Positions 11,462-61,511 of a stretch of 64,000 nt of DNA are shown here, piece by piece. Below the pieces are notes generated by a model. It saw only the letters and a list, made by a program, of their open reading frames with translations, was not told where the DNA came from and searched no databases. Numbering within the stretch: position 1 is the stretch's first letter; each line of letters starts with the position of its first letter. This DNA comes from Gibbula magus. Its lineage: Eukaryota > Mollusca > Gastropoda > Trochida > Trochidae. The translations under genes and the position numbers were made by a program. The stretch is from positions 4,014,035 through 4,078,034 of the forward strand of contig OW388298.1 in assembly GCA_936450465.1 (NCBI GenBank). The letters run 5' to 3'.

Positions 11462-11522
11462 ATGTCTTCAAGAAGCTGTGTACGACTCCTTGTCCTGGCT
11501 CTGTGTATCCCTATTGTTAATG
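11462..11522 (+). CDS. Exon 1: start codon and signal peptide
   Basis: ATG at 11462 opens MSSRSCVRLLVLALCIPIVN, a short basic n-region and hydrophobic core typical of a secretory signal. The donor is G|GTATGT at 11523, phase 1. This start is chosen because the hydrophobic leader joins in phase to the first Ig exon. Confidence 0.8.
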
Positions 11523-14500
11523 GTATGTATCGATATTTAATACATGTTTTAACGAACTCAGTAGCTCAATAATTATTTATTTCAACGCATATTCTTTGAT
11601 GCAGAGAGTTGTTATTACCAACTGAAACAATAATTTAATGTAATTTATTCACAGGCCAGTACAGCTTGTCAGGACCGAGCACAGCTACAGAAGGATCCAC
11701 TGTCACCTTCACCTGTACCACCTCGCCTGTACAGATTTCTGTTAGCTGGAGAGTGATATCAGGTTCTACTTCAAGCAGCTACATATACTACTACGACTCA
11801 ACACTAGGAAGATGTCAGTACTCATCAGGTGACGTAGCACCAGACTACACATTCAAGTGCAACTCTTCGGGACTGTTCAGGCTGTCCTTCCCAGCTAACT
11901 ACACCAGACACAGTGGGTCTGTGTTCCAGTGCAGGAATAATGCTGGACCAGGAGAGAGCGACAGCATAACTCTCAGTATCACAGGTGAGTTACAACTAAT
12001 GCCACATGCTGCATTAGCTTATCAACATTATTCTATGTATACATAAAGAAAGACGTTGAACATTTATAACTGAAACGTGATGTTGTTGAGATGTTACTTC
12101 TCAGGAGTGATTTGTGTGGAGATATAGATGGTAGTGGAGGTACAGGAGAGAGTAACAACATCACTCTCAGTGTCACATGTGAGTTATTGGAAGTGATGGA
12201 GGGAGTGAAGACTACAGTAGACACAGTGGATATATGTGGAGATGTATAGATCGTGGTGGAGGGACAGGAGAGATTAACAGCATCACTCTCAGTGTCACAT
12301 GTGAGTTATTAGAAGTGGTGGAGGGAGTGTAGACTACAGTAGACACAGCGGATTTGTGTGGAGATGTATAGATATTGCTAGAGGGACAGGGGAGAGTAAC
12401 AACATAACTCTCAGTGTCACAAGTGAGTATTAGAAGTGATGGAGGGAGTGTAGACTACAGTAGACACAGTGGATTTGTTTGGAGATGTACATATGGTGGC
12501 GGAAGGACAGGAAAGAGTAACAACATCACTTACAGTGTCACAGGTGAGTTATTAGAAGTGATGGAGGGAGTGAAGACTACAGTAGCTACAGTGGATATAT
12601 TTGGAGATATATGGATCTGGCGCCTGCTTTATGTTCATCGGCACACCTTTCCAGAGGGCTGGAGCTGACACTGAGAATGACCTTTCGTCCAGCTTTGTTT
12701 TAGCGACTGGTAGAGTCAGTAAGTTGTTGTCTGCAGGTCTTAGTGGTCTGCTGGGCTGGGCTGGTAGAAGTCTGACATATTGTGGCGCAGCGGGCATTCA
12801 AGGCCATAATTGGTATCTGAAACCAGTGGAGTTATGTGCTAATGAGTGTTCTATTAACACCACTATTTTGTTTAAGTTTCTGTGATCTATCCTCAAACTA
12901 TGAACACCATGTTCACTGTACACTGATCTAACTTACAGTTCCACTGACGACTGTGACCCTCCTGAACACCACAAATTCTCTCCTCCATCTATCCTCAAAC
13001 TATGAACACCATGTCCCCTGTACACTGATCTAACTTACAGTTCCACTGACGTGTGTGACCCTCCTGAACACCACAAATTCTCTCCTTCATTTATCCTCAA
13101 ACTATGAACCCCTTGTTCACTGGACACTGATCTAACTTACAGTTCCACTGACGAGTGTGACTCTCCTGAACGCTACCAACTCCCCTCTGACTCTGATAGA
13201 AGGAACAGACGTGACCCTGGTGTGTGAGACCAACCCAACTGACCCAGTATCAACCATCTCCTTTAGACGAGACGGCCAGCTGGTTACTCAGGGGGTGACC
13301 AACTCAACCAGACAGGAGACTGGGGGTGTAGTGCCGGTCAGTGTGTTGTCTCGGACAGTCCAGTGGACATACAGGGGTGTCTACAGCTGTGAGGCTCTCA
13401 ATTCGGGGGTCACCAGGACATCTCAGGATATCACTATGGCTGTACAAGGTGATATATATTGATATTTTTTGTTTTTGCTACTTCATGAAATTATTGTTAC
13501 TTTGTGTGAATGACTCAGATGTGTTAAACAGTTGACTATTGATTACACATTCTGAACAAATGATTTTATGTATATTTGAACCAAATCAGCGTTTAATGTT
13601 CACGAGTGGCAAGCACATGGAACTAAAATAGTCACAGTCTTTTAAAGACACAAATATAAAACATTTACATTGTTGTCAAATGTACAGATGAAGATCTTTT
13701 CAATAATGTTAGAGATTATTCTCTACTGTTTATATAACTATCTTATTCTTGCATCAGTGTCTTTATTACATAGATTTGTACCCCTCAATTATTTATCTCC
13801 CAACAGTTCAAGTATCATCTGTCACTCTGACCAACATCACCAACAACGACCAACAAGTACCTGTCAATCAAGAATCCAGCCTCGTTCTGACCTGCCAGAC
13901 TAGCCCCGCCTACCCAGCACCTACAGTCACGTGGTACATCAGATCCAGTATGACGTCATCAGGAGTGGACAGTAGGACAGAGACTCAGGCCAGTGGTCAG
14001 CTGGTCACGGTCAGTACAATCACCAGGACAATGAGGAAGAACAATGACCAGGACACGTTCTACTGTCGAGCTGAGAACATCAACGGAGTGGCAGGGAAAC
14101 AGTCCAACACAGCCAGGGCTAATGTGTTCTGTGAGTGTTGTATTGTTGGAAGGTTTAGTTCACCGTTGTGATGTGTTCAGTGTATATCATATATCATAGA
14201 TTGTCACCTGGGTTATGTTTAATAGTATAAACAATCCAAGACAACCAGGGTTAATGTGTTCTGTGAGTGTGGTATTGTTGGAAGGTTTGGTTCATCATTG
14301 TGATGTGTTCAGTGTATATCATATATCAAAGATTGTCACCTGGGTTAGGTTTAATAGTATAAACAATCCTTACAACCAGGGTTAATATGTTCTGTGAGTG
14401 TGGTATTGTTGGAAGGTTTGGTTCATCATTGTGATGTGTTCAGTGTATATCATATATCAAAGATTGTCACCTGGGTTAGGTTTAATAGTATAAACAATCC

Positions 14501-17500
14501 AAGACAACCAGGGTTAATATGTTCTGTGAGTGTGGTATTGTTGGAAGGTTTGGTTCATCATTGTGATGTGTTCAGTGTATATCATATATCATAGATTGTC
14601 ACCTGGGTTAAGTTTAATAGTATAGACAGTCCAACACAGCCAGGGCTAATGTGTTCTGTGAGTATGGTATTGTTGGAAGGTTTGGTTCATCATTGTGTTC
14701 AGTGTATATCATATATCATAGATTGTCACCTGGGTTAAGTTTAATAGTATAAACAGGCCAACACAGCCATGGCTAATGTGTTCTGTGAGTGTGGTATTGA
14801 TGGAAGGTTTGGTTCATCATTGTGATGTGTTCAGTGTATATCATATATCATAGATTGTCACCTGGGTTAAATTTAATAGTATAGAAAGTCCAACACAGCC
14901 AGGGCTAATGTGTTCTGTGAGTGTGGTATTGTTGGAAGGTTTGGTTCATCATTGTGTTCAGTGTATATCATATATCATAGATTGTCACCTGGGTTAAGTT
15001 TAATAGTATAAACAGGCCAACACAGCCATGGCTAATGTGTTCTGTGAGTGTGGTATTGTTGGAAGGTTTGGTTCATCATTGTGTTCAGTGTATATCATAT
15101 ATCATAGATTGTCACCTGGGTTAAGTTTAATAGTATAAACAGGCCAACACAGCCAGGGCTAATGTGTTCTGTGAGTGTGGTATTGTTGTAAGGTTTGGTT
15201 CATCATTGTGATGTGTTCAGTGTATATCATATATCATAGATTGTCACCTGGGTTAAGTTTAATAGTATAAACAGTCCAACACAGCCAGGGCTAATGTGTT
15301 CTGTGAGTGTGGTATTGTTGTAAGGTTTGGTTCATCATTGTGATGTGTTCAGTGTATATCATATATCATAGATTGTCACCTTGGTTAAGTTTAATAGTAT
15401 AAACAGTCCAACACAGCCAGGGCTAGTGTGTTCTGTGAGTGTGGTATTGTTGGAAGGTTTGGTTCATCATTGTGATGTGTTCAGTGTATATCATATATCA
15501 TAGATTGTCACCTGGGTTAAGTTTAATAGTATAAACAGTCCAACACAGCCAGGGCTAATGTGTTCTGTGAGTGTGGTATTGATGGAAGGTTTGGTTCATC
15601 ATTGTGATGTGTTCAGTGTATATCATATATCATAGATTGTCACCTGGGTTAAGTTTAATAGTATAAACAGGCCAACACAGCCAGGGCTAATGTGTTCTGT
15701 GAGTGTGGTATTGTTGTAAGGTTTGGTTCATCATTGTGATGTGTTCAGTGTATATCATATATCATAGATTGTCACCTGGGTTAAGTTTAATAGTATAAAC
15801 AGTCCAACACAGCCAGGGCTAATGTGTTCTGTGAGTGTGGTATTGATGGAAGGTTTGGTTCATCATTGTGATGTGTTCAGTGTATATCATATATCATAGA
15901 TTGTCACCTGGGTTAAGTTTAATAGTATAAACAGTCCAACACAGCCAGGGCTAATGTGTTCTGTGAGTGTGGTATTGATGGAAGGTTTGGTACACCGTTG
16001 TGATGTGTTCAGTGTATATCATATATCATAGATTGTCACCTGGGTTAAGTTTAATAGTATAAACAGTCCAACACAGCCAGGGCTAATGTGTTCTGTGAGT
16101 GTGGTATTGATGGAAGGTTTGGTTCATCATTGTGATGTGTTCAGTGTATATCATATATCATAGATTGTCACCTGGGTTAAGTTTAATAGTATAAACAGTC
16201 CAACACAGCCAGGGCTAATGTGTTCTGTGAGTGTGGTATTGTTGGAAGGTTTGGTTCATCATTGTGTTCAGTGTATATCATATATCATAGATTGTCACCT
16301 GGGTTAAGTTTAATAGTATAAACAGGCCAACACAGCCATGGCTAATGTGTTCTGTGAGTGTGGTATTGTTGGAAGGTTTGGTTCATCATTGTGTTCAGTG
16401 TATATCATATATCATAGATTGTCACCTGGGTTAAGTTTAATAGTATAAACAGGCCAACACAGCCATGGCTAATGTGTTCTGTGAGTGTGGTATTGTTGGA
16501 AGGTTTGGTTCATCATTGTGTTCAGTGTATATCATATATCATAGATTGTCACCTGGGTTAAGTTTAATAGTATAAAGAGGCCAACACAGCCAGGGCTAAT
16601 GTGTTCTGTGAGTGTGGTATTGTTGTAAGGTTTGGTTCATCATTGTGATGTGTTCAGTGTATATCATATATCATAGATTGTCACCTGGGTTAAGTTTAAT
16701 AGTATAAACAGTCCAACACAGCCAGGGCTAATGTGTTCTGTGAGTGTGGTATTGTTGGAAGGTTTGGTTCATCATTGTGATGTGTTCAGTGTATATCATA
16801 TATCATAGATTATCTTCTGGGTTAGGTTTAATAGTATAAACAGTCCAACACAGCCAGGGCTAATGTGTTCTGTGAGTGTGGTATTGTTGGAAGGTTTGGT
16901 TCATCATTGTGTTCAGTGTATATCATATATCATAGATTGTCACCTGGGTTAAGTTTAATAGTATAAACAGGCCAACACAGCCATGGCTAATGTGTTCTGT
17001 GAGTGTGGTATTGTTGGAAGGTTTGGTTCATCATTGTGTTCAGTGTATATCATATATCATAGATTGTCACCTGGGTTAAGTTTAATAGTATAACCAGTCC
17101 TAGACAGCCAGGGCTAATGTGTTCTGTGAGTGTTGTATTGTTGGAAGGTTTCGTTCATCATTGTGATGTGTTCAGTGTATATCATATATCATAGATTGTC
17201 ACCTGGGTTAAGTTTAATAGTATAAACAGTCCAAGACAGCCAGGGCTAATGTGTTCTGTGAGTGTGGTATTGTTGGAAGGTTTGGTACATCATTGTGATG
17301 TGTTCAGTGTATATCATATATCATAGATTGTCACCTGGGTTAAGTTTAATAGTATAGACAGTCCAACACAGCCAGGGCTAATGTGTTCTGTGAGTGTGGT
17401 ATTGATGGAAGGTTTGGTTCATCATTGTGATGTGTTCAGTGTATATCATATATCATAGATTGTCACCTGGGTTAAGTTTAATAGTATAGACAGTCCAACA

Positions 17501-20500
17501 CAGCCAGGGCTAATGTGTTCTGTGAGTGTGGTATTGTTGGAAGGTTTGGTTCATCATTGTGATGTGTTCAGTGTATATCATATATCATAGATTGTCACCT
17601 GGGTTAAGTTTAATAGTATAACCAGTCCTAGACAGCCAGGGCTAATGTGTTCTGTGAGTGTTGTATTGTTGGAAGGTTTGGTTCATCATTGTGATGTGTT
17701 CAGTGTATATCATATATCATAGATTGTCACCTGGGTTAAGTTTAATAGTATAAACAGTCCAAGACAGCCAGGGCTAATGTGTTCTGTGAGTGTGGTATTG
17801 TTGTAAGGTTTGGTTCATCATTGTGATGTGTTCAGTGTATATCATATATCATAGATTGTCACCTGGGTTAAGTTGAATAGTATAGACAGTCCAACACAGC
17901 CAGGGCTAATGTGTTCTGTGAGTGTGGTATTGTTGTAAGGTTTGGTTCATCATTGTGATGTGTTCAGTGTATACCATATATCATAGATTGTCACCTGGGT
18001 TAAGTTTAATAGTATAAACAGTCCAACACAGCCAGGGCTAATGTGTTCTGTGAGTGTGGTATTGTTGTAAGGTTTGGTTCATCATTGTGATGTGTTCAGT
18101 GTATATCATATATCATAGATTGTCACCTGGGTTAAGATTAATAGTATAAACAGTCCAACACAGCCAGGGCTAATGTGTTCTGTGAGTGTGGTATTGTTGT
18201 AAGGTTTGGTTCATCATTGTGATGTGTTCAGTGTATATCATATATCATAGATTATCACCTGGGTTAAGTTTAATAGTATAACCAGTCCTAGACAGCCAGG
18301 GCTAATGTGTTCTGTGAGTGTGGTATCTTTGTAAGGTTTGGTTCATCATTGTGATGTGTTCAGTGTATATCATATATCATAGATTGTCACCTGGGTTAAG
18401 TTTAATAGTATAAACAGTCCAACACAGCCAGGGCTAATGTGTTCTGTGAGTGTGGTATTGATGGAAGGTTTGGTTCATCATTGTGATGTGTTCAGTGTAT
18501 ATCATATATCATAGATTGTCACCTGGGTTAAGTTTAATAGTATAAACAGTCCAACACAGCCAGGGCTAATGTGTTCTGTGAGTGTGGTATTGATGGAAGG
18601 TTTGGTTCATCATTGTGATGTGTTCAGTGTATATCATATATCATAGATTATCACCTGGGTTAAGTTTAATAGTATAACCAGTCCAAGACAACCAGGGTTA
18701 ATATGTTCTGTGAGTGTGGTATTGTTGGAAGGTTTGGTTCATCATTGTGATGTGTTCAGTGTATATCATATATCAAAGATTGTCACCTGGGTTAGGTTTA
18801 ATAGTATAAACAATCCAAGACAACCAGGGTTAATGTGTTCTGTGAGTGTGGTATTGTTGGAAGGTTTGGTTCATCATTGTGATGTGTTCAGTGTATATCA
18901 TATATCATAGATTGTCACCTGGGTTAAGTTTAATAGTATAAACAGTCCAACACAGCCAGGGCTAGTGTGTTCTGTGAGTGTGGTATTGTTGTAAGGTTTG
19001 GTTCATCATTGTGATGTGTTCAGTGTATATCATATATCATAGATTGTCACCTGGGTTAAGTTTAATAGTATAAACAGTCCAACACAGCCAGGGCTAATGT
19101 GTTCTGTGAGTGTGGTATTGTTGTAAGGTTTGGTTCATCATTGTGATGTGTTCAGTGTATATCATATATCATAGGTTGTCACCTGGGTTAAGTTTAATAG
19201 TATAAACAGTCCAACACAGCCAGGGCTAATGTGTTCTGTGAGTGTGGTATTGTTGTAAGGTTTGGTTCATCATTGTGATGTGTTCAGTGTTTTTCATATA
19301 TCATAGATTATCACCTGGGTTAAGTTTAATAGTATAACCAGTCCTAGACAGCCAGGGCTAATGTGTTCTGTGAGTGTGATATTGTTGGAAGGTTTGGTTC
19401 ATCATTGTGATGTGTTCAGTGTATATCATATATCATAGATTATCACCTGGGTTAGGTTTAATAGTATAACCAGTCCTAGACAGCCAGGGCTAATGTGTTC
19501 TGTGAGTGTGGTATTGTTGTATGGTTTGGTTCATCATTGTGATGTGTTCAGTGTATATCATATATCATAGATTATCTTCTGGGTTAAGTTTAATAGTATA
19601 ACCAGTCCTAGACAGCCAGGGCTAATGTGTTCTGTGAGTGTGGTATTGTTGGAAGGTTTGGTTCATCATTGTGTTCAGTGTATATCATATATCATAGATT
19701 GTCACCTGGGTTAAGTTTAATAGTATAAACAGTCCAACACAGCCAGGGCTAATGTGTTCTTTGAGTGTGGTATTGTTGTAAGGTTTGGTTCATCATTGTG
19801 ATGTGTTCAGTGTATATCATATATCATAGATTATCACCTGGGTAAAGTTTAATAGTATAACCAGTCCTAGACAGCCAGGGCTAATGTGTTCTGTGAGTGT
19901 GGTATTGTTGGAAGGTTTGGTTCATCATTGTGATGTGTTCAGTGTATATCATATATCAAAGATTGTCACCTGGGTTAGGTTTAATAGTATAAACAATCCA
20001 AGACAACCAGGGTTAATATGTTCTGTGAGTGTGGTATTGTTGGAAGGTTTGGTTCATCATTGTGATGTGTTCAGTGTATATCATATATCAAAGATTGTCA
20101 CCTGGGTTAGGTTTAATAGTATAAACAATCCAAGACAACCAGGGTTAATATGTTCTGTGAGTGTGGTATTGTTGGAAGGTTTGGTTCATCATTGTGATGT
20201 GTTCAGTGTATATCATATATCATAGATTGTCACCTGGGTTAAGTTTAATAGTATAAACAGTCCAACACAGCCAGGGCTAATGTGTTCTGTGAGTGTGGTA
20301 TTGTTGTAAGGTTTGGTTCATCATTGTGATGTGTTCAGTGTATATCATATATCATAGATTGTCACCTGGGTTAAGTTTAATAGTATAAACAGTCCAACAC
20401 AGCCAGGGCTAATGTATTCTGTGAGTGTGGTATTGATGGAAGGTTTGGTTCATCATTGTGATGTGTTCAGTGTATATCATATATCATAGATTGTCACCTG

Positions 20501-23500
20501 GGTTAAGTTTAATAATATAAACAGTCCAAGACAGCCAGGGCTAATGTGTTCTGTGAGTGTGGTATTGATGGAAGGTTTTGTTCATCATTGTGATGTGTTC
20601 AGTGTATATCATATATCATAGATTGTCACCTTGGTTAAGTTTAATAATATAAACACAGCCAGGGCTAATTCTGTGAGTGTAGTATCGTTTGAAGGTTTTC
20701 AGTGAATATCATATATTATAGCTTGGGTTAATGTTTGTGATTGTTGAAAAGTCCATTCAGCCTATTGGTTTTATTTTTTATCTATAACTTATAAATTTAT
20801 TATAACTATGCTAAATATAATGTCTGAAGTAATCTGAATATATTTATAGAAATGTGGTTTGTAATAGATATTAGATAGTTATATTCCTGTATTTATATGA
20901 CATAGTTCAGGTGATATTGCTTCATGTATCATATAACTGTGTCCTATATATTTACTATATCATTCTCATACAATAAATAAGTTGTTATTCACAAAAAAAA
21001 TTCTTTGAATAAATTGAATCCTGATCTGAAAATGTATTTCTCCATTGACTGAAATACTACTTCCTTGGACAGTAACATTATTCATATCTACAGATGGTCC
21101 TGATGCCAATATGGTGACGTTGATCAAACCTTCAGTTGTTGCTGAGAGGAACGAAGTGACCCTGACCTGCAAGACACTGACCCCAGTTAACCTGGAAGTA
21201 GACTTCACCTGGTCGTACGGAGACAACACAGCAATCACTTCAGGACTCGGCAGCAAGCAAGGAGGAGCTCGAGGTGTGTGGTCTCAGACACTGAGAGTGA
21301 GAGCAGAGAGAGACAGCAACAGACAGGAGATCAGATGTGACGTCATCAACACAGAGACCAGCAGGAGTGAACGAGTTGTTGTGTATCTGGACGTCAGCTG
21401 TGAGTAGACAGAAGTATTGTTAGATGCGACTGACATGTGAGTTGTTGTAGAAATGAAAGGTAAGATTGAATGTTGAACGGCAAATGAATATAAATCCCAT
21501 AATGTAAATATGTAACTGTAGCGGTTGATCGAGACTGAAAGGATATGTCTTAAGACGAGCGAGTTGCTTGAGTGGTGGAAGGTAGAAAATGATTGAATGG
21601 ATGAATAATGGACTGAACGCTGTGCTAGACAGAGGTACAATGTATGCTTAGATGTGACATGTGAGTTGTTGTAGAAATGAAATTATGTACTTGTTGATCT
21701 GTATCTAAAGCGGTTGTTCGAGACTAAAAATTCGGTTTCATTTGTGATTTGAAGATATGGCTTCAGGCGAGCGAGTTGCTTGAGTGGTGGAAGGTAGAAA
21801 CGGAATGAAAGTGCACCTGTTCAGGGACTGAACTCATTATTCCATATAAACACAGAACCAAACCTCAATGGTGCATGTATGTGTTTCAGGCTAAATCGGT
21901 GTCGCAAATCCGTTTAGTTCTTTCACGAACAGAGGTTATCATTAAAGTGGTCAATTTTCTGTATTAGGAATAAATCTTGTATTTGTACCATGGCGAGCTT
22001 GATATACAGTATTGTTACCTAATGCAGGACATTTACCATCCCTAAAAACACGAGCATGATAACCTATTTGTCGAAAATCAGGAACATTTCTTTACTGTAA
22101 AAATGCACGATGTTCCGTAGTATATACTCTCTCCTGCATCAGATTGAATGTGTTTCATTTTGTTACTTTCCTCCACAGACGGTCCAGACTACGGAGAAGT
22201 TCAGGTCCTTAATTAAATCTTTAATTGTAGCATATTAACCTCATTCTGTTTCTTTTCTTCACAGATTGTCCAGACTCCGGAGAAGTTCAAGTCCTTAATT
22301 AAATCTTTACTTGTAGCATATTAACCTCATTCTGTTTCTTTTCTTCACAGATTGTCCAGACTCCGGAGAAGTTCAAGTTCTTAATTATATCTTTACTTGT
22401 AGCATATTAACCTCATTCTGTTTCTTCTCATCACAGATGGTCCAGACTCCGGAGAAGTTCAATTCCTTATTTATATCTTTACTTTTAGAATATCTACCTC
22501 ATTCTGTTTCTTCTCATCACAGACGGTCCAGACACAAGAGAAGTTCAAGTCCTTATTTATATATTTACTTGTAGCATATCAACCTCATTTTGTTTCTTCT
22601 CATCACAGACGGTCCAGACACAAGAGAAGTTCAAGTCCTTATTTATATATTTACTTGTAGCATATTCACCTCATTTTGTTTCTTCTCTTCACAGACGGTC
22701 CAGACTCCGGAGAAGTTCTTATTTATATATTTACTTGTAGCATATCTACCTCATTCTGTTTCTTCTCTTCACAGATGGTCCAGACTCTGGAGAAGTTCAA
22801 GTCAGCAAAGCCTCCACAGCTGTAGAACTGGAACCTCTCAGTCTGACATGCAGCACAACCAACAACGTCAAACCTGGAGTGACCTTCACCTGGACAGTTG
22901 ATGGGTCAGAGGTCACTTCCGGTACAGGTGTCATACAGGGGTCATCTGGGAGCACATGGTCTCAGACTCTAACGCTGACCCCAACCAGAGGTCAAAGTTC
23001 AGTTGGTTGCACTGTGAACAACACTGCCATTGCTAGACAGGACAGTAGTAGTGTGGATCTCGATGTCAACTGTGAGTATTTTATTTCAGTTAGGACCAAA
23101 ATAACAACTGAATGTATGGGGGAGAGTATAAGTATAGTTACATTGCATTTTTTACACGTGACACCCTTGCATAATTGACTTGTTCTTACCATACTTCTGT
23201 CTTCTGCATCACATATCATACCACATTATGTGATGCTTGCACTACCAACCCTGACACAGCCTGGAGGTGGCGTCCGCAAGATTGTCTTTACAAACCGCCA
23301 TTGAATTATCTCAGACGTTTAATGTATCCACAATTATTTAATGACAGACAGGAGTTAAACTTTTCTGGTTTGGTAATCGAGTTTCTTCTTCCGTTTAGAC
23401 GACCTGTCACTGTAGCAGCTGTTAGTTCCAACCACACTCTTCAGGGGAACAACGCTTGATTTCCGAACTTCCCACGAAACTGTCCTTTTAGGTGTTTTAA

Positions 23501-26500
23501 GCGGGACCTTGTTTACAGTGTGCGAACTAACCAACGAATACTTTGCACTTTAAAATAATGACTAATTTGTCTTTATACTGGGAAACACTTTTTTGGCAAT
23601 TTCTACATATATTTTAAGTAAAAATACTCTGCGTAAAATTATGTGTATATCTTTCAACGACAGAGTTTTGGCAATTTACAATTTAGCATATCCCACAGAA
23701 GCACAAATTGACACAAGAAGACCATCGAGCATATATTTTTGTTTTGTGGACATCCCCACAGGACACACAGCCACATGAGCAGTACATTATGGTATTGAAA
23801 ATGATTATGTCTCCCCCCGAAGGGTCGGGATACATAGTGTGTTTTGTTGAGTTCCCGTAGGCGTCGGCATACCCATTGTTTCTGGAGCATACCTCCAAAA
23901 CTACTTACCCAATCATCAACAGATTTAGTATACAGCCTCCCCATATCATGCAGATGTGCCTTTTGTGGTTTCAGATTTAAAAACAAATTGTTTTGTTTCC
24001 AAGGTAACAATTTGGCCTTTGTCTATTTGAAGGGTAGGGTTTATTTCCGGGTCATATCTCTTAAACTATGTAACCTTTCTTCCCCAAATGTGTTACACTA
24101 CCTCCCGATATCATGTAGCTGTGTCTTTTGGGTGATTGAACTTTTTAAATAATTTGCACTTTGTCTTTTAGAAGGGTTTCAGCCGTTTCTCTCCTATGCA
24201 TAGTCATGTTAATTTCACTAACTACCATAACCAACAACTGTCAATTTTTACTTACATTAAAAATTTTACTTTTAATATTTAATTTTTCCAGCCATGTGAC
24301 TATATAAACCATAAATAGATATATATATATATCATGTTTACATAATATGTGTACCGAAACTATCTGGTTGTATTCCCTACAAATATTACCAGTGGAAGGT
24401 AAGTTAATTAAGTTGGGATGGGGATACAATGCAGCAGTGAGGGTGAGCAATCAGTAGGGGTTAATCATGGAAGCCAGAGTGAGTAGAGTGGATTAATTAT
24501 TTGTGGATTAAGTGGTTGTAACCTGATGGGATGAAATAGCCTTGATCTCTATTCAAAGAGGGATTATGTCTCACAATTTGTAAAGCTTCAGAAAAACGGT
24601 GGTGAGTGTAATCATGTTTGTTGTTTGTGAGTGTTTTGACAGCGTCCCATTTGATGTTGTGTTGTGGAAATTTGGTTATGTGTTCCGAAATGTCTGATTT
24701 GTTGTCTGCCTTGATTGTGGATGTTTTGTGTTCTTTGATGCGTATGTTTTATGGTCTGGATGTTTCCCCAATGTAGTTGCTGCCACAGTTGCGGCTGATG
24801 TTGTAAACTGCGTCTTTAGGCTGTTGTTTTGCTGTGGAGTGTTTCCTACCATTAGCCTTAATGATCATCCCAACTTAATTAACTTACCTTCCACTGGTAT
24901 CCATGTTATCACAACCTGCTTGTTACACCTTTCATATCATACCGAAACGTCGCTATTGTTAATAAATAAGTTGATCATCCATAAATAGTTGTCTTCTTCA
25001 TCACACCAACTTCTAGAATGCCTCTCAAACAGTTTCCTTCATGATTAGTTAGTTATATGCTATTTCAGATCTAGATCGACCACACTTCACAATGAATCAG
25101 ACCGAGGTGAGAGAAGGCGAGAGTGTCAGACTGGAGTGTTCGACTCGGAGTCATCTAACACCACAGCTTACTGTACGTAATGTGGACAACGACACTGATA
25201 TTGTACAGGAAAACACTGGTGATCTCTTGTACACCATTCGACAGGCTCACTGTCTACACAACGGCTCCTTTGTTTGTTCTGCTGCACAGGAGGGAATTGG
25301 AGTATTGTACAGCCAGATACTTCAATTGAACGTATTATGTAAGTTGAAAACGTTTCTTCTTATCTTCTCAAGAGTTCATGTTTAATCCTTCTTTAGGTGG
25401 ATTGCTTGAGGTGAAGTCGGCTTACCTGTTTCCATGAATAGAGAACTCTTATCAGTTTATCATTAAAGAGAAAGAGTTCATGTTATCTTCAGTGGTTGTA
25501 TTCAATACACATCAGAGGTTGAATCCTCACTTGATACGTGGACCATGAACTCTTAACTTTACATCTATATACATATGTATAGATGTACAGTTAAAAGTTC
25601 ATGGTTTATGTTTTAGATATTCTTAAAAATTTATATATTGAAGATTAACTTTCATATAAGTTCATTTCCGATCGGTTTCACAACATAGTGTTCATTAGGG
25701 AAACCTATACAGTGTGTTGCTAATGATGTAGCGTCGACAATGACAAAGGACGTATTTCATGACGTCATATGCATACCACAATAATAAAATATATATACAG
25801 TAAATGCGAAGTCGACATGATTTCATATTTAGTACAGTTCTGTTTGGGCGTATATCCTTTCCTTCAATAAAGTATATTTCTTTGATTTTCCTCAGCTCTT
25901 CATATTTGTGGCATTTTGTAAATTGGACAGATTGTAACATGCGCTGGTTGTGGTGAGGAGTATATTGGGATGAATGCATATGTATATTATTAGGATGAAT
26001 ATATATATACATTCCTTATAACATTGTCAATGGTGACCTTTATTAGTTAGGAGAAAACCATAATTTTAAATTAACCAAATTCTCATTTGGTATGTTCATC
26101 TACTCTAATTCAATCGTATGACGTCATCGATGAAATCGTGGAAACAAGAGTGATGTCATAAGATCAGTAAATGGTTAATGAAGCAAGGCGATCTAAGATC
26201 CATGACGTGAACGCCATTTATGAACTAAATATACACTGTAAATATAATAAATACAATATGCTGATATCTTTATGGGTAAGTGAAATATAATACTGCCGTC
26301 GTATTGAAGCCACATACACCCAATTCTAAAAATGTTCTTTCCCTTTTAAAGATACATCCATTGTGTTGATGGGGGTCACATATTACAAATGTTATAAATG
26401 GTGTTACTTTATCGAGAAGTACCTACAGTTACCGAAAACTACCATTTTGATGATAGTAGACTTATCATATTGACGATATGAAGGTAAAAGTAGTGATCTC

Positions 26501-29500
26501 TAGAAACTAGTAATAATGAGATATTTGGCGATTGGGGATAAATATATAAAGCTGAGTGAATTTATTTATATTGTAGACGGCACATGTGGTGAGTTGGAAC
26601 GTATTAAAGCCAAATAAAATTTTATGAAAAACAATGGATGCACCTTTAACACAAACGTAATATCACAAACGATAAGATCCAGTACAAATATTCAAAGATT
26701 GATTTTGAACTGTTTTGATTTCATCCACGAAACAATTATTGGTCGACTCCCCTTTGTTCTCGGCGCCTTTTGGGTTTTAGCACAGGAGATTGGAAACTGG
26801 GAGCAGAAGTTTTCTGTGAGTTTTTCAGTCAATGCTGACAATATGACTATGTTTGTATTCATCTTTCCTGTTTTAGACCAGGTTCCAAATTGTGAATGAG
26901 ACAATCAAGAAGTCATTTCACTGGTGTTGAACACCTATTTATTACCCAACCGTGGTGAGATCACTATTAGATAACAATGAGATGGTTACACACATGTGTG
27001 AAACCACCGCGTGCTGCCGTTACGTCATAATCGGCGCGTGACATAACTGTCCTTTTTGGTTGATGTCACATTGTTAGCCGAACGACTGCAATAGCGGGTA
27101 ACCTATTTGCAAGTGAGCGTCGCTTACAACGATTTTCTTGCTATTCAGCGCTATTTACATCATGGAGTAATTAATAAAATACTAAACTCGGTCCCGTTTG
27201 ATAACATGTTTATGAAAAATACTCGTGATTTGCATCGGTATTAACTCGCTTTCGCTTGTTAAATTACCAAACAATTCACTCATTTCATAAACATGTTATC
27301 AAACGGAACATCGTTTAGTATTCTATATATTTTAGTACATGTTTGTTTGTGGTGAAATAATTCATATAAGGTTTTCAGTTCAATACAAATGCATGCATGT
27401 TTCAGTTTTGTAAATCAATGTTCTATTTGCCTACTCTTGTACATGTAAGCGATGTCTTCAGTTATCAGCTCATCATGGTCACTGTAAATTCCTCAAAAAA
27501 AAAGATTAGTTGTTAATTTCCTTTAAATACGGTTGGGACTATATTGCCTGTGAATAGATGTAATCTTTTCTTAAAATCAAAATGGATGATTGGATGTTTG
27601 CAGGTTCTCCTCGTCTTGATACGAGAAAACCACTGAAAAGAAACGTGTCAAGTGGACTAGATGAGATCGCATCTCTCCTACTCAACGTGATATCAAACCC
27701 TGCACCAACATTTCACTGGTATCTCAGTGACAACGAGCAGCTGGTTCCTATCCCTAACGTCACCAAGCACGAGGTCATCTCCACAGCGAGGTACTCAGTG
27801 CTGCAGATCCACATCACTCACGTCAGGGATTACGCATCGTATGTTGTAGAAGCTACCAGTATCAGTGGAACGTTCACGGTGAAGTTCAACTTGCTTCCCA
27901 CCATAAGTGAGTATATTGAAATAGTTTATGTGTAGATGGAATATGGGTAAATTGAGTAGATTTTGATATTTGTAGTAACTGCCAATAGCTATGCATTTAC
28001 CAATAAAAAAAGGAACTACATAGTTTCCTTGTAGTATTAGCTGACAATGTCAATAGTTGCATATTCACTAAATGTTGCCATAACAATATTAATAATAGGT
28101 TGATGGATTTAGAAGCCATTTAGGAGATAAACCCTCTATGTTTGAAAATCAGAGACATGTTATACTGGATTGATAGCGAGTAAATTTAAAATTGAAACCG
28201 AACGCAATACACGTTTATCAAAACAAGATCATTATCCATATGTACAAACTCAAGTGCTAAACAAACAATGCAACCACAGTGTGGACTGGTGATCTAGGTC
28301 AGCTATACACAGAACAGTTTCTTTCACAAGTGAAAAGAAGGGTATGAACTGGTTTCCTGGAAAGTAATGCTACAGTGACCATGGGCGAGTGTTTGAATAC
28401 TGTCCTCCAACACAAAACGTTTGTCATCAAAAGGAGATAAACTAATTTTATTAATAGAAGATGTGTACAGTTGATGGTTTTTACTCTGAATTTGACCTTT
28501 TTTTTTACTTTTCTTTCTTTATTCGGTGCTTCTGGGTGCCCCTTATCCTCCTTAGTGTCAAGAGCTATAACCATCTTAACTCGCTTTTGTAGAGCTTCGC
28601 TCTCATTCTAAGGGCACCACGTTCTTACGTGGCGTTGAAGATCGTGGTTGTTTTCAAATACAAGACCACACTCATCACAGGAAGGCATGTTTTCGTCTTC
28701 TGAATCCACAGAGGAATTGTCCAGCAGATTGAAGGTGGTAGCTTTAGGAGTGACGGAGGTATTATCTCGAGTAGTCACAGAGATGTTATCTCTAGGAGTC
28801 AACTGATGAGATGCTCCAGGTTGCTCCTCTTGTCTCATTCAAACTTGATTCTAGTGACATATTTGGTCTGTGTTCTGTCATTTTAGGGGTTGTATGTGTA
28901 AGTACATTAGGCTGTCATCTCTCTGATTCAAGGGTGCTTGGTCGTAGGTCAATCGTGAGATTACCGTATGGGATTTGTACAGCAGTTTCATACACTGACA
29001 TGAATCTATCTACATTGTTGGGGTAGTTGCGTCTAGCAAACAGTTGGACTTGCAGCCTATCCACAGGAGAGTTGAATAAAGTCACATAATGAGAATTCAG
29101 AGCTATGCCATATACTCTTTCCCTCTTGGAAACAGGTTTTGTAACAGAAGAAAGATGATGACATTTTTGTTATGAGAGATTCGTGTAAATAGCTGAGAAA
29201 TGCGTTTGCCATTCTTAGCTTCTCACATCATGTCATCCATGACCACCATGTCGTTGTTTCTGGCATCCAAGTATGTTGTATATAGGGAATTCCTTTCACA
29301 AACTTTACATGAGGTAAGTGTTCACTGATCGTCTGGTAGAGGGGCTGCCAATCTGTGTAACACCACATAATGTTATTTGGCATTGGCTGTATAGACCCCT
29401 GCATGAGATGATTGTATAAGAAAAACGATTTGCCACTCGAACTTGGTCCAACCACAAGAGAATTAGAGGGAAGGATAAAGTTGAAATGCTCTCTATCATT

Positions 29501-29506
29501 GCATTT

Positions 29507-29540
<34 letters not shown>

Positions 29541-32500
29541 TACAGCGGCGGCTGTGGCAATTGCGGCGGTGGCGGTAATTGCAGCGGCGGCGGTGGTAAT
29601 TGAGGCGGCTGCGGTGGTAATTGAGGCGGCTGCGGCGGTAGATTGTTGCTAATGTGCTTATGTCTTCTGTGTCTCAGCATAACATCTTTTCTAGAAAACT
29701 GTCTCTGACAATCTGGACATGTTCCTTCCATTGTGGTTGTGTCTCAAATGAGAAGTACCTGAGAAATAGTCCCATTTATACTGCCTGCATATCCTGCTCT
29801 GGAATCCAACTGTTAAATTCCTTAGGATATCCAATCCATTTCACGTACCCCTCGTTTCTGTCAGCTCTTTTTCTCTTCTTCAAGACTCTCTCTACTCGCC
29901 ATATGGTATCATCAGGTTTATCAACTGGCTGAAGTTCTTTTGTGTAAAATGAACTTGAATCCCCTTCCATGTCCGTGACTTTATAGACTTGTATCTCATC
30001 TCTGTAGTAACGTCTACTGACAATGGATATTTCCTCTGTCCATTTCTCCTGATAGTCATATAGTCTCCTGGAAAACATACCTTAAATGTGACAGTCGCAC
30101 CTGATCCCCTACTTTAAATTTAAAGACTTTCCTCCTGGTTTTGTTCATCTTCTCAGCGGGTTTGAGCGGACTGATCAGTGGATCAATGTACTGTTCTCTC
30201 CAAACAATAGCCTCATTGTTTGCATCAATCTCTGAAGGTGTGCGTTCATTGAGTGATCTGTGAGGTCTGTGGTTGTAGTCCCTCACGAGATCTTGTAAAA
30301 CTTCAAGATAATGATAGGTTTGTTTATAAGTAAAGTATCTATATATATGGGTTTACAATGTCCGTATTACCCTCTCTGCATAGGAAGCCTTAGTTTCATA
30401 CTGTGTCACATAGTAGCTGATAGATCTCACTTTCTTATTATTGAATTCCCGACCTTTGTCAGATCTTATGATTTGTGGTTGTTCAACATGTGGACATATC
30501 TTTTTCACGGCTTTAATCGCAGCATCTGGAGTCTTATTTTGTAAGGGTTCTACCCATAGGAATCTTGTAAATACATTGATATTGAGTTGACCTGATTGCA
30601 CTCTGCATATACACTGCTGGTGGTGATATTGCATACATTCATATAGTCCCTTGTACATAACATTTGTTTGTCATCATCTACAACACACCAACACGGATAC
30701 CTGTCCATTCTATTCATTACGTTGACCGGGTTATCCTCTTGTTCAATTACCCGAAATAAACCCTATGTATATTTCATCATATCTATTTACAGTTGTCTAA
30801 TACTCTTCACTGAGGCCCTGTTCACAAATGTTTTATATCACTGCGAGGGTCTCACGAGTTATTTTTAGGCTGGGATATTCCGTTTCTAACAATAGTCGGG
30901 TTATTACACCACATCCGATCTATTTATAGGCTTCTACGTCACACTCTCTCACGCTAATTAGGTCACTCTATCGATAAATTCAATAAAGTGGGGCTCAACG
31001 CTCTTTCTTATATCATCACACCTCTTTTCATCAAATAAACTCTCTCAATTGCCATTGTTTTAATTATATATATTTGTTGTTTTGACATGCTAATTTAGGT
31101 ACGAGACCCCACAGTACTGCACCTGACAGACTGGGATTAGGAGTTGGGATCGGTATTGCTGCAGTACTGCCGATTGTTATCATCGGAATCATTGTCGATG
31201 TTTGGTTTAGAAGACGTACATTTAATGTGCTACGAAGAAAAGGTAGGTTATAGTTATATTGTTTCTAAATGGCCAGAGAGCACACTTTACTCATGCATTG
31301 TCTTATATTGAATCCCCTAAAATTGTGGATACTGTCTACGTTTCTTTATTCTGTTTTTGACTTTTGTAAATGTATATGTCGGTATTATTTATTTTGTTGG
31401 TGAGTTTATGTTATATCATGTGTGTCTTTTCATAATCGAACGTATCTCGTATTTTAATTACAGATCCCGAAGTAAATCAGGAAACTCAAATGTAAGTAAA
31501 GGAACGTGGTTTTTCCCACATTTAACATACAAACTCCTCTAAATCAATCCATAAGAACTTGCAGAGGATCCAGAACAGGGCATCTCTCACATAGTGAAAC
31601 GGGCTAAACCTTGTGAGCCTCTTGTTTTTAAGTTTTAAATTGTGAAATTGTCACTGATATGATAACTCCACTCTCTGGCTGATTGTTCCAGCAACATTAA
31701 TGAAACTTGCTGACTGTGGCATATTGAAAACACCCGAAACCCTGTTGAACCAATAGTTCCTAGTTCACCAAGCTAATCATATGTAATATTTCTCCTGTTC
31801 AATACTAACAAGTAGCACAATATAGGTACTACGAAAATTAATAAATTTATTTTTTAATTATTAAAAAATTTCAATCAATCAATCAATCTTTATGTCAGTA
31901 CTTAGAAGGCCACAGGCCTATAGTACATTTCACATGTATATACTGCGTAACATTAGAGCTTTGTGAAGAAAAACTGCAACATTTTAATTACATTTTAATT
32001 TAAACAATTCAATAAAGAAGAAAATTTATCAATTGATGGATGGACAAAATAGAATTCTTTAATATATATTTTTACGTTTATTATCATAAGCTCGACAAAC
32101 AAGAAGAAAATGATATTCATCTTCAATACTATTATAATTACAGCATCTACATAATTATTATTTTTTCTCTTTTGATATTAAAAAAAGCTACCTTTTCAAG
32201 TAACAGATCATGCGATGAACAACGGAAACGAGCTAAACATACTCTAAAATTCCTAACATTGACACATGATAAATAACGTTCTGTATAAATATGCGTTTTG
32301 ATGATAGAGTAATAATTACATTTTGTAGATATTGACATTTTTTCAAACCAGTTTTGTTGGTAAATATCTTTAAATCTTTGAGTAAACGTGTTTAGAAACC
32401 ATGACGAGAATTCTACCTTTTGTTCATCCCATATATGATTAAATACAGTTGAAGACAGTAGGCGTTTAACATCTGATACCCTACTCCTTTAACCTTCTTT

Positions 32501-35500
32501 GTCATAAAGTAGCATCATATCATAGCACATTTTTGGCAAACGATAGGATGGCATATTTAATAGCCTTTACCAATATTTAATCACTCTGATTTGTGACGAT
32601 AGAATGAGAGGGTATCGGCCACATTCCCCATACACCATGACATTTGATGTGTTCATCTTTACCCCAAGGAATTTTTTGCAATCAAATAAATGTACCTTTT
32701 CTATACAATCATAGTTTTTAAACCCCCAAATTTCAGCACCATAGAGTAAAATTGGGTTTATTTTAACATCAAATATTCTGAGAAAAGACGTTAAACTGAG
32801 ATCCCCAAGTATCTTTATATTTCTCATTATGCTTATTAATACCTTTCATGATTGAACAGCTGCATATTTTGCATTTCTTACCCAAGCGTGCACAGATATG
32901 CCTGGTATTAAAGTTTTCATAATGGTCATGGGCCTGCCGTGACTTCATTGCTTTGTGAAGTCATTAACCATGACGTCATTTGGTGACGTAATTACACTCC
33001 TATCGTGCATTCCAACAGAGCGAATAATCAGTTCACGTTTTCAAAAGTTTTCTCTCATTCTGCGACATTGTTTACAATATAAATGGCGTACTTACTATGT
33101 CAGTAAACCATTTTGGGAATAAAATTCAACAGTTACTTTAGAATCTTTCTGGAAAAAAGAGCGCAAGTTGTAAACTATTTAGATGTGCGCATCTTGAAGG
33201 TGTGAGAGAGTTTATGCATGGCGTATGTGTACAATTCGTATTTTGCAGTCTAATCAAAGATCGTGAATTTGCGTCTTGTTTTTTAGATTTGTATGCATTT
33301 AAATGATCTTGGGTAAAAAAAGAATAACCAACTCGGTCCTCGGAATTACGAATTATCTGTCCCTCGTGAATTATTATGTCAAACTCCTCGCTAAAGTTCG
33401 GAGTTTATCACAATAATTAACTTGGGACAGATAATCCGTAATTCCTCGCAACTCGTTGGTTATTCTTATAGTACTGACAATGAAAGATTATTAGTAAAGT
33501 ATACACCTTGGTAGTAGTCTCTATGCTATTGACTTTGTAGTACCATCTTTCAATTACTTCTCTTTTATCCATATTACAAGCTAAGCAGAAATTGTTACAA
33601 TAATTTTCTAATTCATTTATTTGAATAATATTTGGAAACTTTCAAATGAAGTCTCCAATTAACTTGGTATTGTCAAATATCAAATAGAAATGTTATTATG
33701 TAGGCAACATCCAGTATATCTAAACCATTAAATGCCAAAATGCGTAAAACATAACACCTCTGTTTATGTACAGATCCTTTGCCTTCAGTCATTGCCTACA
33801 GACTTAACTTTCACAACAAAACAAACATATTCTTTCAACATCTTGGCGAGAGATTAACAAGCTAGACAGGACAAAATGTTGTTCTTAGATAAAAATGAAA
33901 GTGAGCAATATCTTTGTTCAATCCTTGTTTAAATACAATACAACTTTGTCCCCATATGCATGTTTTCAACTTATCTTGTTATCTTGCACCATTTTGTAAG
34001 CACTTTGTACACTTTAAGCACTTTGTAACACGTTTTTCTTGTCCATTTCATAAGTAGTCAACCCCTTAGTCTGAACTAACTGATGTGTTTTTTGTTTCCG
34101 ATGTAATGAAGAAAACGGGTCCTCGTTGAATAACGGTCCTATGGTCATTGTTCAACATTGACAAATGGTCCTAGGTCCAATTTCAACAGGAAGGGGGACC
34201 AGTTTTCAACAGTTGAATAAGATATAGACAGACATCACCCTTCTTATGCTTGTCATTGTCAATTTCGATTCTGAAATTCTGAGTCGGGCAACCGTTTAAC
34301 TTCCCTTTTCCATATTGTCACTTGACGGGTCGTACGGTTGGTATACCCCGACAAGTGCGCCTACACGGTTTCATATGTATTGGCTTAGACCAATCAGAAT
34401 TCAACGAATGTATCTGAAGGCTAATAACGCTATTTAGTATGTTTCTCTTAAATGCTATCAACAAGCGTGACAGTAACACTTTCAGAAAATGTACACTTTT
34501 CAACGTTGAGGACGTGACCTGCAAGATGTATCCGTTGAAAAAGCGATCACAGCGGGGACCAAATTCAACAGAAAACAGCTCGAAATACAACGACAATGCA
34601 GTCACTTTTCAACATTAAAATTAGGTCCTGGTTACTTATTCATTCAAGCATCTGATGTAAAGGTCATCAATGTTATTTCAATACATTTCTAGGCAGAGAA
34701 TAAATGCTATATCCATTGATTATGTTATCATAAATCGTTCTTAACAATACACTATTTGAGAATATTAAAAGATTTAACTTCTTTTCAGAGACATGACATC
34801 GGCGCATCATGATGGTACGTCCAGAAACATCTATAGTTACTTGTCAACTTGACTGTGATGCAAAACAAAAATACTTTTTAAATAAATTGCCATTTTGAGT
34901 ATGTATATTAGTATCATAACAAATCTTTGAGTATATATCTTTGTCTGATATATGACTTTGTTTTTGGTTATTGGTATGATATTGATAAGGTGCAACTGAC
35001 TTCTTCTCCATCAGATCCAACAGGAACATATTCGGATCTATCACCTACACCCGGGAACAAGTATGAACAACTGAAAGTACAGCATCCTGAAGGTGACGTA
35101 TTCTGAAGATATTCTGGTTCCATGATTTGCAGAAATATAAAACTGATTGTATTTGAAAATCATTCTAATTGGATTTATATGTGTTATCAGACGCAGCATC
35201 AGATATAAGTGAGCTGATACGAGGACGCATACCTTCCATGTTATAGCAGTTTTATGAAATGGTTTACTGCTTTGGGATCATACTAAAATGGTTATAAACT
35301 GTAAAAGACCAGAAATAGTATATTGATCTATCTTCCGACAGCAAGATAACATAATCATAATAATTCCTCTTTATCACGTAAATGGTGAGGTATGTAGTCC
35401 AATACTTTAGGTTTTTATAAAATCTCAAGATTTACATTTAAGAAATAAGATATTTCGTTATTTTTTTAAATAAATGTATTTCTTTATATAGAAAGAAGAT

Positions 35501-44600: not shown

Positions 44601-44692
44601 GCGCCCAGTTGGCCACAAACCGAGAGAGTCGACCTCCCACTGGCCCTTCCCACGCCGGGACAACCTGTGGAGGCAGCTCGGGGGCCATCCAC
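41687..44692 (-). CDS. DIRS ORF3: tyrosine recombinase
   Basis: Performs site-specific integration of the circular DNA intermediate without target duplication. The recombinase occupies the last ~365 residues: an N-terminal SAM-like part (SVAEAVASSQRPSTRNLYDA, then VPQVAEYLVYLREV) and a catalytic part with R799 in AARISELHAL, H927-EI-R930, a Trp/Lys segment CFWKSG and nucleophile Y963 in NHYLRD. All key residues are present. The ~630 residues before it are open but overlap the RT-RNase H frame and show no domain, so the protein probably starts later or is made by frameshifting. It ends at 41687 close to the terminal repeat. Confidence 0.85.
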   Translation of the reverse strand: MDGPRAASTGCPGVGRASGRSTLSVCGQLGAIGTRSFRLQGFGAGVSYSRGTPPPANLFSNREAARTRSARTDAGTGGDTHLQTGGGGTPAPKPHPRILFSGLRATEAGPEKVAADPRLEGVQPLLPRAAAIFSSLDRTISDAVAGALGLDDIPRSAGRVSAHSHLPWGSQVPPFCPGGSPLSVERSTVRDIVGSMAFHSRDPAHRPIPSSSGRAVRDVSGRRVHSQQIPICSGGATRLCDNVVQAPGMASQPRQVRPGANDVAGLSGSSPGYRDLQSFRHHRTDGALQRSPGISTPGAAVTPQVAEAVGVLERDPTLHSKGSVAAQAPADLRQHARQGEDLPSCLPDPNRFETPPLLVAAGIQRAGRSASQAAPSDVSAIRGCLHPGVGSPPRLGPNGGGVVASASAAPHQRPRIGRHKAGDQPLVRSPAGAGPVCSHGQLSGGLGHKQAGVNQGRLSTSTGGGAVSPSGQSRTLSQSGAHPGSQERPGGRLVSTGQTSFDGVDVAPEGVRESVFEVRQTSHRPLCDSAQPPVADVRVPRTGPGRVGSRCARVRMGGDGRLRLSPSSHPESRGGEGTGDTSTSTPAHSSVVASQGLVRSPEEDVPPRPCPPPSEMGPIDEQTKRAGSREPPGAPPSRLVCLQRGLTGAGFSKSVAEAVASSQRPSTRNLYDAQWGAFAAFCAKEGYAIQAVTVPQVAEYLVYLREVRKLKASSINTNLAAVMSVLRKREPQVDISVLKELIKTYRNEDGRRKLRPPEWDLTVVLNHLKSDHYEPLTETTLLRLTIKTAFLVAMGSAARISELHALQADLLRFEVRDGGSASLGLAPEFICKNQAADERGRTFSLPSLSGSIDPTDEDRLLCPVRALRIYTEKTKTLRQGRRKLFLPHSQTSVRELDKRQLSVYLRSAVLDAYKAAGLDPPARANPHEIRAISATMALHSNMAVADIMAGCFWKSGLVFANHYLRDISNEDMEGIHRLGAQVYAQQRVPSASYRRGLPPPR

Positions 44693-46483: not shown

Positions 46484-46523
46484 ACTCAGCAAGCCAAAGA
46501 GAGAGACGCGCGAGCGGCCGGCG

Positions 46524-46920
46524 CTATCCCCGCGCAAGCGCACTAAACAAGCGCAGGCGGCAGTGCAATCCAACCCGGGCGACAAGCGCTGTCCAACCCA
46601 GGCGACACCCTACCAAGAGGAGGCGCCAAGCGCTGTCCACGCGCACGCGGTAAGCGCTAAACAAACGCAGGCGGCAGCGCAATCCAACCCAGGCGGCAAG
46701 CGCTGTCCAACCCAGGCGCCAACCTGCCAAGAGGAGGCGGCAGGCGCTATCCACGCACAAGCGGCAAGCGCTAAACAACGCAGGCGGCAGCGCAAACCAA
46801 CCCAGGCGGCAAGCGCTGTCCAACCCAGGCGCCAACTTACCGAGGGGAGGCGGCAGGCGCTATCCCCGCGCAAGCGGCAAGAGCAATCAAGCGCAGACGG
46901 CAAGCGTCAATCGCTACAGC
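46524..46920. repeat. 113-114-bp tandem repeat in DIRS leader
   Basis: About 3.5 units containing aagcgctgtccaacccaggc, with starts at 46584, 46698 and 46811, rich in aggcggcaagcg. It lies in the element's 5' untranslated leader. Long open frames on both strands here are by-products of the repeat. Confidence 0.85.
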
Positions 46921-61508: not shown

Positions 61509-61511
61509 ATA

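Follow-up and report, generated by a model that had tools for sequence, protein, structure and literature searches.

This analysis concerns a 64,000-nt stretch of the genome of the gastropod Gibbula magus (the window; 4.01-4.08 Mb of the 77-Mb contig OW388298.1, called C10 below) and an immunoglobulin (Ig) receptor gene on its plus strand (11462-35092; positions without a contig name are those of the window). In four tandem arrays of this gene, and in one further array of its paralogs, the repeat unit spans an exon-intron border and joins approximately 29-87 nt of exon, a splice site and 35-98 nt of intron. The five edges concerned are the donors of Ig1 and Ig3 and the acceptors of Ig2, Ig5 and an extra Ig exon. 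We consider it probable that these arrays were seeded by exon-edge DNA in a recombining family of gastropod Ig receptors, through duplication and unequal exchange filtered by selection, and that the decoy splice sites they contain are tolerated passengers.

The receptor gene consists of a signal-peptide exon, seven Ig-type exons, a transmembrane (TM) exon and a probable tail exon; the joined exons give an open frame, and phase 1 is consistent across all borders. Tandem Repeats Finder (TRF) located arrays at 12115-12617 (122 bp x 4.1), 12885-13171 (102 bp x 2.8), 14097-20655 (132 bp x 50) and 22155-22803 (86 bp x 7.6). Together with the unit maps, these results bear out an earlier reading made from the letters of the window (the sequence-only reading), which had placed four arrays here, each with an exon edge and a usable-looking splice site. 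All lie on the plus strand. The Ig1-type donor array (12109-12617) is built of 122-bp units of about 87 exon and 35 intron nt, with four decoy donors at 12179, 12301, 12423 and 12544. In the Ig2 acceptor array (12885-13171; 102-bp units of about 48 exon and 54 intron nt), decoy exon starts at 12939 and 13041 precede the genuine one at 13143. The Ig3 donor array (14097-20735) comprises 51 units, mostly 132 or 127 bp long (34 exon and 98 intron nt), that is, the genuine donor at 14131 and 50 decoys, 49 of which have an intact GT. The junction TTCT/GTGAGT is retained in 50 of the 51 units, and the exon-derived part is more variable than the intron-derived part (identity 0.951 vs 0.971). Between 14131 and 20735 its coding strand is also markedly enriched in G and T (GC skew approximately 0.3). 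Each 86-bp unit of the Ig5 acceptor array (22155-22803; 29 exon and 57 intron nt) contains the tract, the AG and 29 nt of exon, so the splice signals lie inside the duplicated segment; seven decoy acceptors are followed by the genuine one before 22775. The weaker duplication reported at the Ig4 donor proved real: it is a two-copy repeat (21397-21833, plus strand, period approximately 222 bp) that begins 3 nt ahead of the donor, and its halves (21397-21618 and 21619-21833) share 69% identity (E 1e-18).

Different window arrays showed no similarity to one another at E 1e-4 in a self-comparison, in accord with the sequence-only reading, whose core, the arrays themselves, was upheld. Three of its generalizations need correction. 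The arrays sit in three introns instead of four, the Ig1 and Ig2 arrays lying together in one, and the Ig5 array sharing another with the Ig4 duplication. The repeats are not always at an exon edge; among window-gene repeats of period 20 or more (shorter periods were left out of the count), five of nine are. The other four are intronic and away from edges: a duplication at 23876-23990/24041-24156 (69% identity), two small repeats with periods of 23 and 25, and, within an apparent mobile-element remnant, a GC-rich repeat (29507-29645). Finally, Ig1 is an exception to the statement that the introns amplify exon boundaries of their own. The window Ig1 array has no contact with its exon, and its units are closer in sequence to the corresponding edge in paralog B (89% over 145 bp) than to the Ig1 exon of the window gene (72% over 98 bp); in paralog B, the Ig1 array begins within the exon. 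Secondary structure was rejected as the cause of instability, since one unit from each of the four window arrays, folded as DNA, did not stand out clearly from shuffled sequences (z 0.46, -1.59, 1.25 and 0.50).

The host assembly (1.47 Gb, 140 contigs) was searched with the Ig2, Ig3 and Ig5 edges, and matches were found on C10 only, the chromosome of the window gene. Nine paralog loci were fetched (A, B, C, D, E, F, Gx, H and I). The fetched stretch of Gx holds a signal peptide and Ig1, that of F holds Ig2 and Ig3, and that of I holds Ig4 and Ig5; no exon was recognised in that of H. Among the Ig2-Ig5 copies, 22 of 23 are 91-97% identical to the window gene, the exception being Ig2 of C (83%). 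Ig1 varies more than any other N-terminal exon compared, and the two copies recovered from paralogs match the window Ig1 at 73% and 79%. Because Ig2 contains a stop in A and a frameshift in C, these two paralogs may be dead genes. A protein search with Ig7 identified six closely similar copies on C10, another that is split (16.63 Mb) and approximately 15 relatives at 38-43% identity, mostly on C10. At C10:1.30-1.64 Mb, approximately 10 Ig7 relatives in this identity range form a second cluster of older paralogs.

The search of related genes proposed in the sequence-only reading revealed the same arrays in the paralogs and a fifth one, again at an exon edge. Copy numbers of the edge arrays differ among these closely similar genes from none up to at least 240 (the 85-bp array in B, described below); "at least" marks arrays that leave the fetched stretch. 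The Ig1 donor unit is present 4 times in the window gene, at least 122 times in A, 22 times in B, at least 77 times in D and 12 times in Gx. The Ig2 acceptor unit is found 3 times in the window gene and is more numerous in H (6), D (10), Gx (16), A (20) and C (at least 141); B and F have none. The Ig3 donor unit occurs 51 times in the window gene, 141 times in C and about four times in A; B has two or three edges, D and E have a single extra edge each, and F has none. Ig5 acceptor units number 8 in the window gene; D (54) and E (35) have the most, followed by C (13), I (4) and A (2), and B has two or three partly decayed units. In C, the Ig5 acceptor array ends 224 nt before the exon, and in A and Gx the 122-bp array directly adjoins the 102-bp array. 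For 0.64-0.92 of the units the nearest unit lay in the same gene, against 0.32-0.58 with shuffled labels. The arrays are thus satellite-like in being long, tandem and homogenised by locus, and among the matches listed their units are confined to C10. Because the paralogs share arrays, the independent origins that the sequence-only reading assigned to the window gene are better placed in the history of the family.

The fifth edge array, with a unit of 85 bp, is located in the intron between Ig5 and Ig6 in paralogs B, C and D. The notion that it is a non-exonic repeat was dropped, as the sequence TTATTCTCCAG/ACCCTCCAGAC within its unit represents the acceptor of the extra Ig exon, which was not found in the window gene. 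In D, nine units lead into this extra exon (PF13927, 36.0 bits). In B, at least 174 units form one stretch and 66 another, 5.6 kb apart, and the 66-unit stretch reaches approximately 38 nt into a real extra Ig exon. The 85-bp unit has at least 538 matches genome-wide. Among the approximately 150 matches listed, all except those of D lie at 277231-347502 of C10, ending at the real exon at 347403, and none of those listed falls between 299 and 322.6 kb. The matches from 277 to 347.5 kb would appear to belong to one intron of gene I.

A different kind of array was met at C10:5687809-5729623 (approximately 42 kb, 5.69-5.73 Mb), where matches to an internal piece of Ig7 accumulate. The 2.8 kb of this region that were inspected hold a 71-bp array of Ig7 exon positions 115-197, which runs into a weaker match to the exon remainder; its period is not a multiple of 3, and the locus looks like a broken Ig7 copy. 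In this one case, exon DNA appears to have seeded an array in the exon interior as well, where nothing must work.

The paralogs are mosaics. In every pairwise comparison their Ig2-Ig5 exons share 90-98% identity, and their introns are of unrelated types that switch at or near exon edges. Before and in Ig4, paralog D resembles E (94.3%; others 82-88.5%), but from Ig5 onward it resembles I (94.3%), with B at 90.2% and E at only 68.2%. Paralog F has no Ig3 array, and its donor continues into a different intron. In D and E, one Ig3 unit of the window type is followed by a second edge that enters an F-type intron (79.6% identity over 103 nt in D, 71.6% over 148 nt in E, approximately 38 nt of the compared stretch being exon edge). 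The switches lie at exon edges, with one hybrid edge (Ig3 of D and E). As the window Ig1 units are nearer to the Ig1 edge of B than to their own, the simplest reading is that the Ig1 exon of the window gene was exchanged and the array was kept. The sequence-only reading had considered unequal exchange between paralogous Ig exons as a starting event. For exons at the same position in different paralogs, such exchange, together with exon swapping, is supported by the mosaic structure. Exchange between neighbouring Ig exons of one gene was rejected as a candidate, there being little DNA similarity between them (best E 0.002).

The predicted effect of decoy use is severe. All 62 window decoys with intact dinucleotides predict a stop before the TM codons (Ig1 donor, 4; Ig3 donor, 49; Ig2 acceptor, 2; Ig5 acceptor, 7), and in the 66-unit stretch of paralog B all 55 intact decoys predict a stop before the exon end. 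When scored with a simple position table, the Ig3 decoy donors were similar to the true donor and the two Ig2 decoy acceptors scored higher than the genuine one, whereas four of the seven Ig5 decoys (the other three being equal) and three of the four Ig1 decoys scored lower. The true site yields the shortest exon at each edge, so exon definition would favour it. Drift was measured by parsimony changes on unit trees, comparing the GT/AG columns with the mean column. The respective values were 3.00 and 3.39 for the 122-bp family (106 units), 3.00 and 3.38 for the 132-bp family (191 units), 2.50 and 3.07 for the 102-bp family (117 units), and 1.00 and 3.00 for the 86-bp family (114 units). Conservation of the decoys was therefore unsupported overall, change being near the unit average in three of the four families. 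Across the four families, 496 of 524 recognisable units retained GT or AG, a count that takes in the genuine sites and refers to the stretches as first fetched; for the fifth family the figure was 223 of 261. These shares are upper bounds because the junction-pattern search misses badly decayed units. Given the near-average change and the premature stops, the decoys look tolerated and not used. The suggestion in the sequence-only reading that they might truncate receptors, release secreted forms or slow splicing is disfavoured on the same grounds.

A comparison with chance was run on the window gene by dropping duplications of the observed lengths at random into its introns after collapse of the repeats. 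Placement at edges was rarer in this model than observed, with P of approximately 0.001-0.03, values that are uncorrected for the gene having been picked because of its arrays. Five of six long duplications lie at edges (P 0.001-0.017), and the four TRF arrays alone gave P 0.0005-0.012. Requiring 20 nt of exon removes the Ig4 case and leaves four of six (P 0.013-0.034, gene-wide); five of eight, with the GC-rich repeat omitted, gave P 0.004. Over the fetched loci and the window gene together, five of the six array families with a period of at least 60 bp and at least 10 copies represent exon edges. The sixth, of 211 bp, is in locus H, which yielded no recognisable exon. Away from edges, the paralog loci commonly contain repeats with shorter periods or fewer copies. 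As a small control, 10 short exon-like kinase exons were chosen among 140 matches; none had an array of period 60 or more within 1.4 kb on each side, and two had repeats of period 23-29. In another small control, three of the five distant Ig matches were inspected with 0.7-1 kb around them, and none had an array of period 60 or more.

These observations suggest the following sequence of events. Duplications of approximately 70-130 bp would arise repeatedly in the receptor family, and the resulting arrays would grow and shrink inside their own gene, probably via unequal exchange, as the copy numbers and the clustering of units by gene suggest. Exon DNA would be duplicable anywhere; a duplication in the exon interior would usually break a working gene, whereas one that crosses an edge would leave one complete exon and a usable true site, and edge arrays would survive selection. 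The interior array in the broken Ig7 copy favours such a survival filter as the reason for edge arrays in working genes. The mosaic structure records exchange of segments between paralogs at exons, where their similarity lies, and an exon swap may leave an array behind, as for the window Ig1. The decoys would ride along, the true site offering the shortest exon and the only full-length frame among those tested.

Several points weigh against this reading. The survival filter by itself gives no reason why five of six large families represent edges and not plain intron; random placement in the window gene gave P of approximately 0.001-0.03. The AG of the 86-bp family changed less than average (1.00 vs 3.00, with equally low values in 21 of 83 column pairs). 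Change in the wider acceptor motif was on the low side too, both in the 86-bp family (9 of 69 column windows as low) and in the 102-bp family (15 of 84), so weak constraint on the acceptor decoys is possible. The neutral reading of the decoys is itself drawn from unit columns. Moreover, the paralog sample is part of the family, with three of the six close Ig7 copies (at 2.07, 3.31 and 4.01 Mb of C10) outside it.

Much of the mosaic evidence would also suit the idea that the arrays are recombination platforms, in which repeated edges add homology, exons or gene segments are swapped, and receptors are diversified, somewhat like switch regions. The paralogs switch at exon edges, a window-type unit meets an F-type intron at the second Ig3 edge in D and E, the window Ig1 exon differs from its array in its closest relative, and the paralog Ig1 exons stand at 73% and 79% identity where Ig2-Ig5 mostly stand at 91-97%. 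Even so, we regard this idea as unlikely. The exons alone provide approximately 300 bp of high identity, so arrays would be unnecessary for exchange; a breakpoint could be placed at an array only for the D/E edge; and edges that lack arrays (in F and B) also differ in intron type. It is likewise doubtful that the edge arrays are a working substrate by which exons, above all the variable Ig1, are swapped as cassettes, the arrays being both tool and scar. A location at edges by mere chance, which we also hold to be rather unlikely, would require that the introns were short before the arrays grew, so that 100-bp duplications often overlapped an edge, and that an extreme gene was the one noticed. 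The collapsed introns do measure only 132-567 bp, which gives each of the five edge cases a probability of 0.26-0.56 in its own intron, and the four other window-gene repeats are away from edges; yet random placement fits poorly, the one further large array in recognised paralog genes is again at an edge, and in the small controls none of 10 kinase exons and none of three distant Ig exons was near an array of period 60 or more.

If the decoys were functional, they would slow splicing or produce truncated, secreted or nonsense-mediated decay-targeted isoforms, and array length would tune receptor output. The high retention of GT and AG in all five families agrees with this, as do window scores that match the genuine site for Ig3 and come near it for Ig2 and Ig5, and decoy use would truncate the receptor ahead of its membrane anchor. 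In addition, intronic minisatellites of C. elegans have been linked to multiple alternative splicing (PMC4039745). A function of this kind nevertheless seems quite improbable, because the dinucleotides change at nearly the unit average in three of four families, 10 of 124 column windows of the window 132-bp array are kept as well as the donor stretch, and copy number ranges from none to well over 100 among closely similar genes. An assembly artefact is hardly credible: long arrays are hard to assemble and the copy numbers may be inexact, but the Ig3 array has 42 distinct units among its 51 and interleaves two unit lengths, and the same units recur at many loci of the 77-Mb contig. The seeding of arrays by exon-edge DNA, with tolerated decoys, remains the explanation that we prefer.

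The receptor gene itself resembles an immune-type receptor. Its signal-peptide exon (11462-11522) has an open frame, a GT donor and a phase 1 end, with copies in Gx (92%) and B (70%). Pfam cut-offs were exceeded by three of the seven Ig exons: Ig2 (13143-13448; PF13895, 36.1 bits), Ig3 (13807-14130; PF08205, 43.2 bits), whose final 34 nt are part of the first array unit, and Ig5 (22775-23071; PF07654, 27.5 bits). Below the cut-offs were Ig1 (11655-11984; weak Ig matches), Ig4 (21094-21399; weak PKD and Ig matches, PKD being best, with 96-97% identity at six paralog loci), Ig6 (25069-25338) and Ig7 (27604-27906; 23.2 bits against a cut-off of 23.7). Ig6 and Ig7 are 40% and 37.5% identical, respectively, to a nephrin-like protein of Haliotis asinina. 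The TM exon (31099-31242) encodes a hydrophobic stretch between phase-1 borders and matches the Haliotis protein at 52% over 31 residues (E 0.094 alone). The probable cytoplasmic tail exon (35015-35092) encodes YSDL-x7-YEQL, its frame joins the TM exon directly, and paralog A has an 88% copy. The tail exon was placed by reading frame and by a relative, and the signal peptide and TM segment were called by inspection; all these exons are on the plus strand.

We take the spacing of YSDL-x7-YEQL to be like that of an immunoreceptor tyrosine-based activation motif (ITAM; YxxL/I-x6-8-YxxL/I). On the strength of this ITAM-like tail, the window gene possibly represents an activating immune-type receptor family in gastropods. 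The closest protein found is the nephrin-like protein of H. asinina, with 41% identity across 76% of the C-terminal 251 residues. It shares with the window receptor the last Ig domains, the TM segment and an ITAM-like tail (YSDI-x7-YEDL), but differs in having a fibronectin-III Pfam match and a longer tail. A first protein search, which scored the 7991 candidates sharing most words, had returned only 13 distant vertebrate Ig proteins. A possible small exon past the TM exon (31464-31491) reads to ATG TAA at GTAAGT and would give a tail that lacks the ITAM-like motif.

Elsewhere in the window, the Ig7-TM intron holds minus-strand remnants at 28900-30700, with a chromodomain piece (PF00385, 35.3 bits) and a P-loop piece (weak PF19044), which we suppose may derive from a Polinton-like element. 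Retroelement copies, presumably of DIRS/Ngaro-like type, lie on the minus strand at 41687-46609 and 51265-53643; the DIRS-like reverse transcriptase of the first is closest to proteins of H. asinina (72% identity). A 195-bp tandem repeat of 12.8 copies occupies 61508-64000 and continues past the window end. No RNA families were detected in the window at gathering thresholds.

In models of splicing, a strong and complete site near a genuine one is a threat, and the open gene described here bears dozens of near-perfect decoys, with well over 100 in some paralogs. Since copy numbers range from none upward in similar genes, the locus offers a natural experiment in true-site choice by the spliceosome. 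It also presents exon edges as seeds of satellite-like DNA. Exon exchange among mollusc receptors with ITAM-like tails bears on the diversification of invertebrate immune-type receptors, and the family offers a rare view of the scrambling of immune-type receptor genes.

With the limited terms used, no earlier report of splice-junction arrays at several edges of one gene family was found in the open-licence literature. Partial likenesses exist. The clusters of sea urchin SpTransformer genes (PMC8634487) share with the snail locus clustered similar immune genes, repeats, and a discussed role for gene conversion and instability; their short tandem repeats flank the genes and imperfect repeats lie inside an exon, whereas the snail repeats involve exon edges and splice sites. 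The polyubiquitin gene UBC (PMC10809524) likewise has a tandem array of splice sites within one gene, but its sites are dual donors and acceptors between coding repeats, whereas the snail decoys are intronic and of one kind per array. In a potato RNA-dependent RNA polymerase gene, an intron was gained through tandem duplication across an intron-exon border (PMC4974935). As in the snail units, that duplication crosses the acceptor and carries branch site, tract and AG; there, one duplication created a new spliced intron, whereas the snail arrays reached high copy number. Intron gain at the snail arrays would be disfavoured, as the stop predicted for single-decoy use in every window case speaks against it. 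Internal tandem repeats at exon-intron boundaries have also been described in human segmental-duplication genes (PMC2812944). Like the snail arrays, these are of minisatellite size, lie at the border and vary in copy number between near-identical paralogs, and 27 intron modifications were kept there after inspection in which transcript support was weighed. The snail arrays differ in affecting five edges of one gene family with up to more than 100 units per intron, and they are described at the DNA level. Border repeats that vary between paralogs are therefore known, and what appears to be new is their presence at five edges of a single family, with well over 100 complete splice sites.

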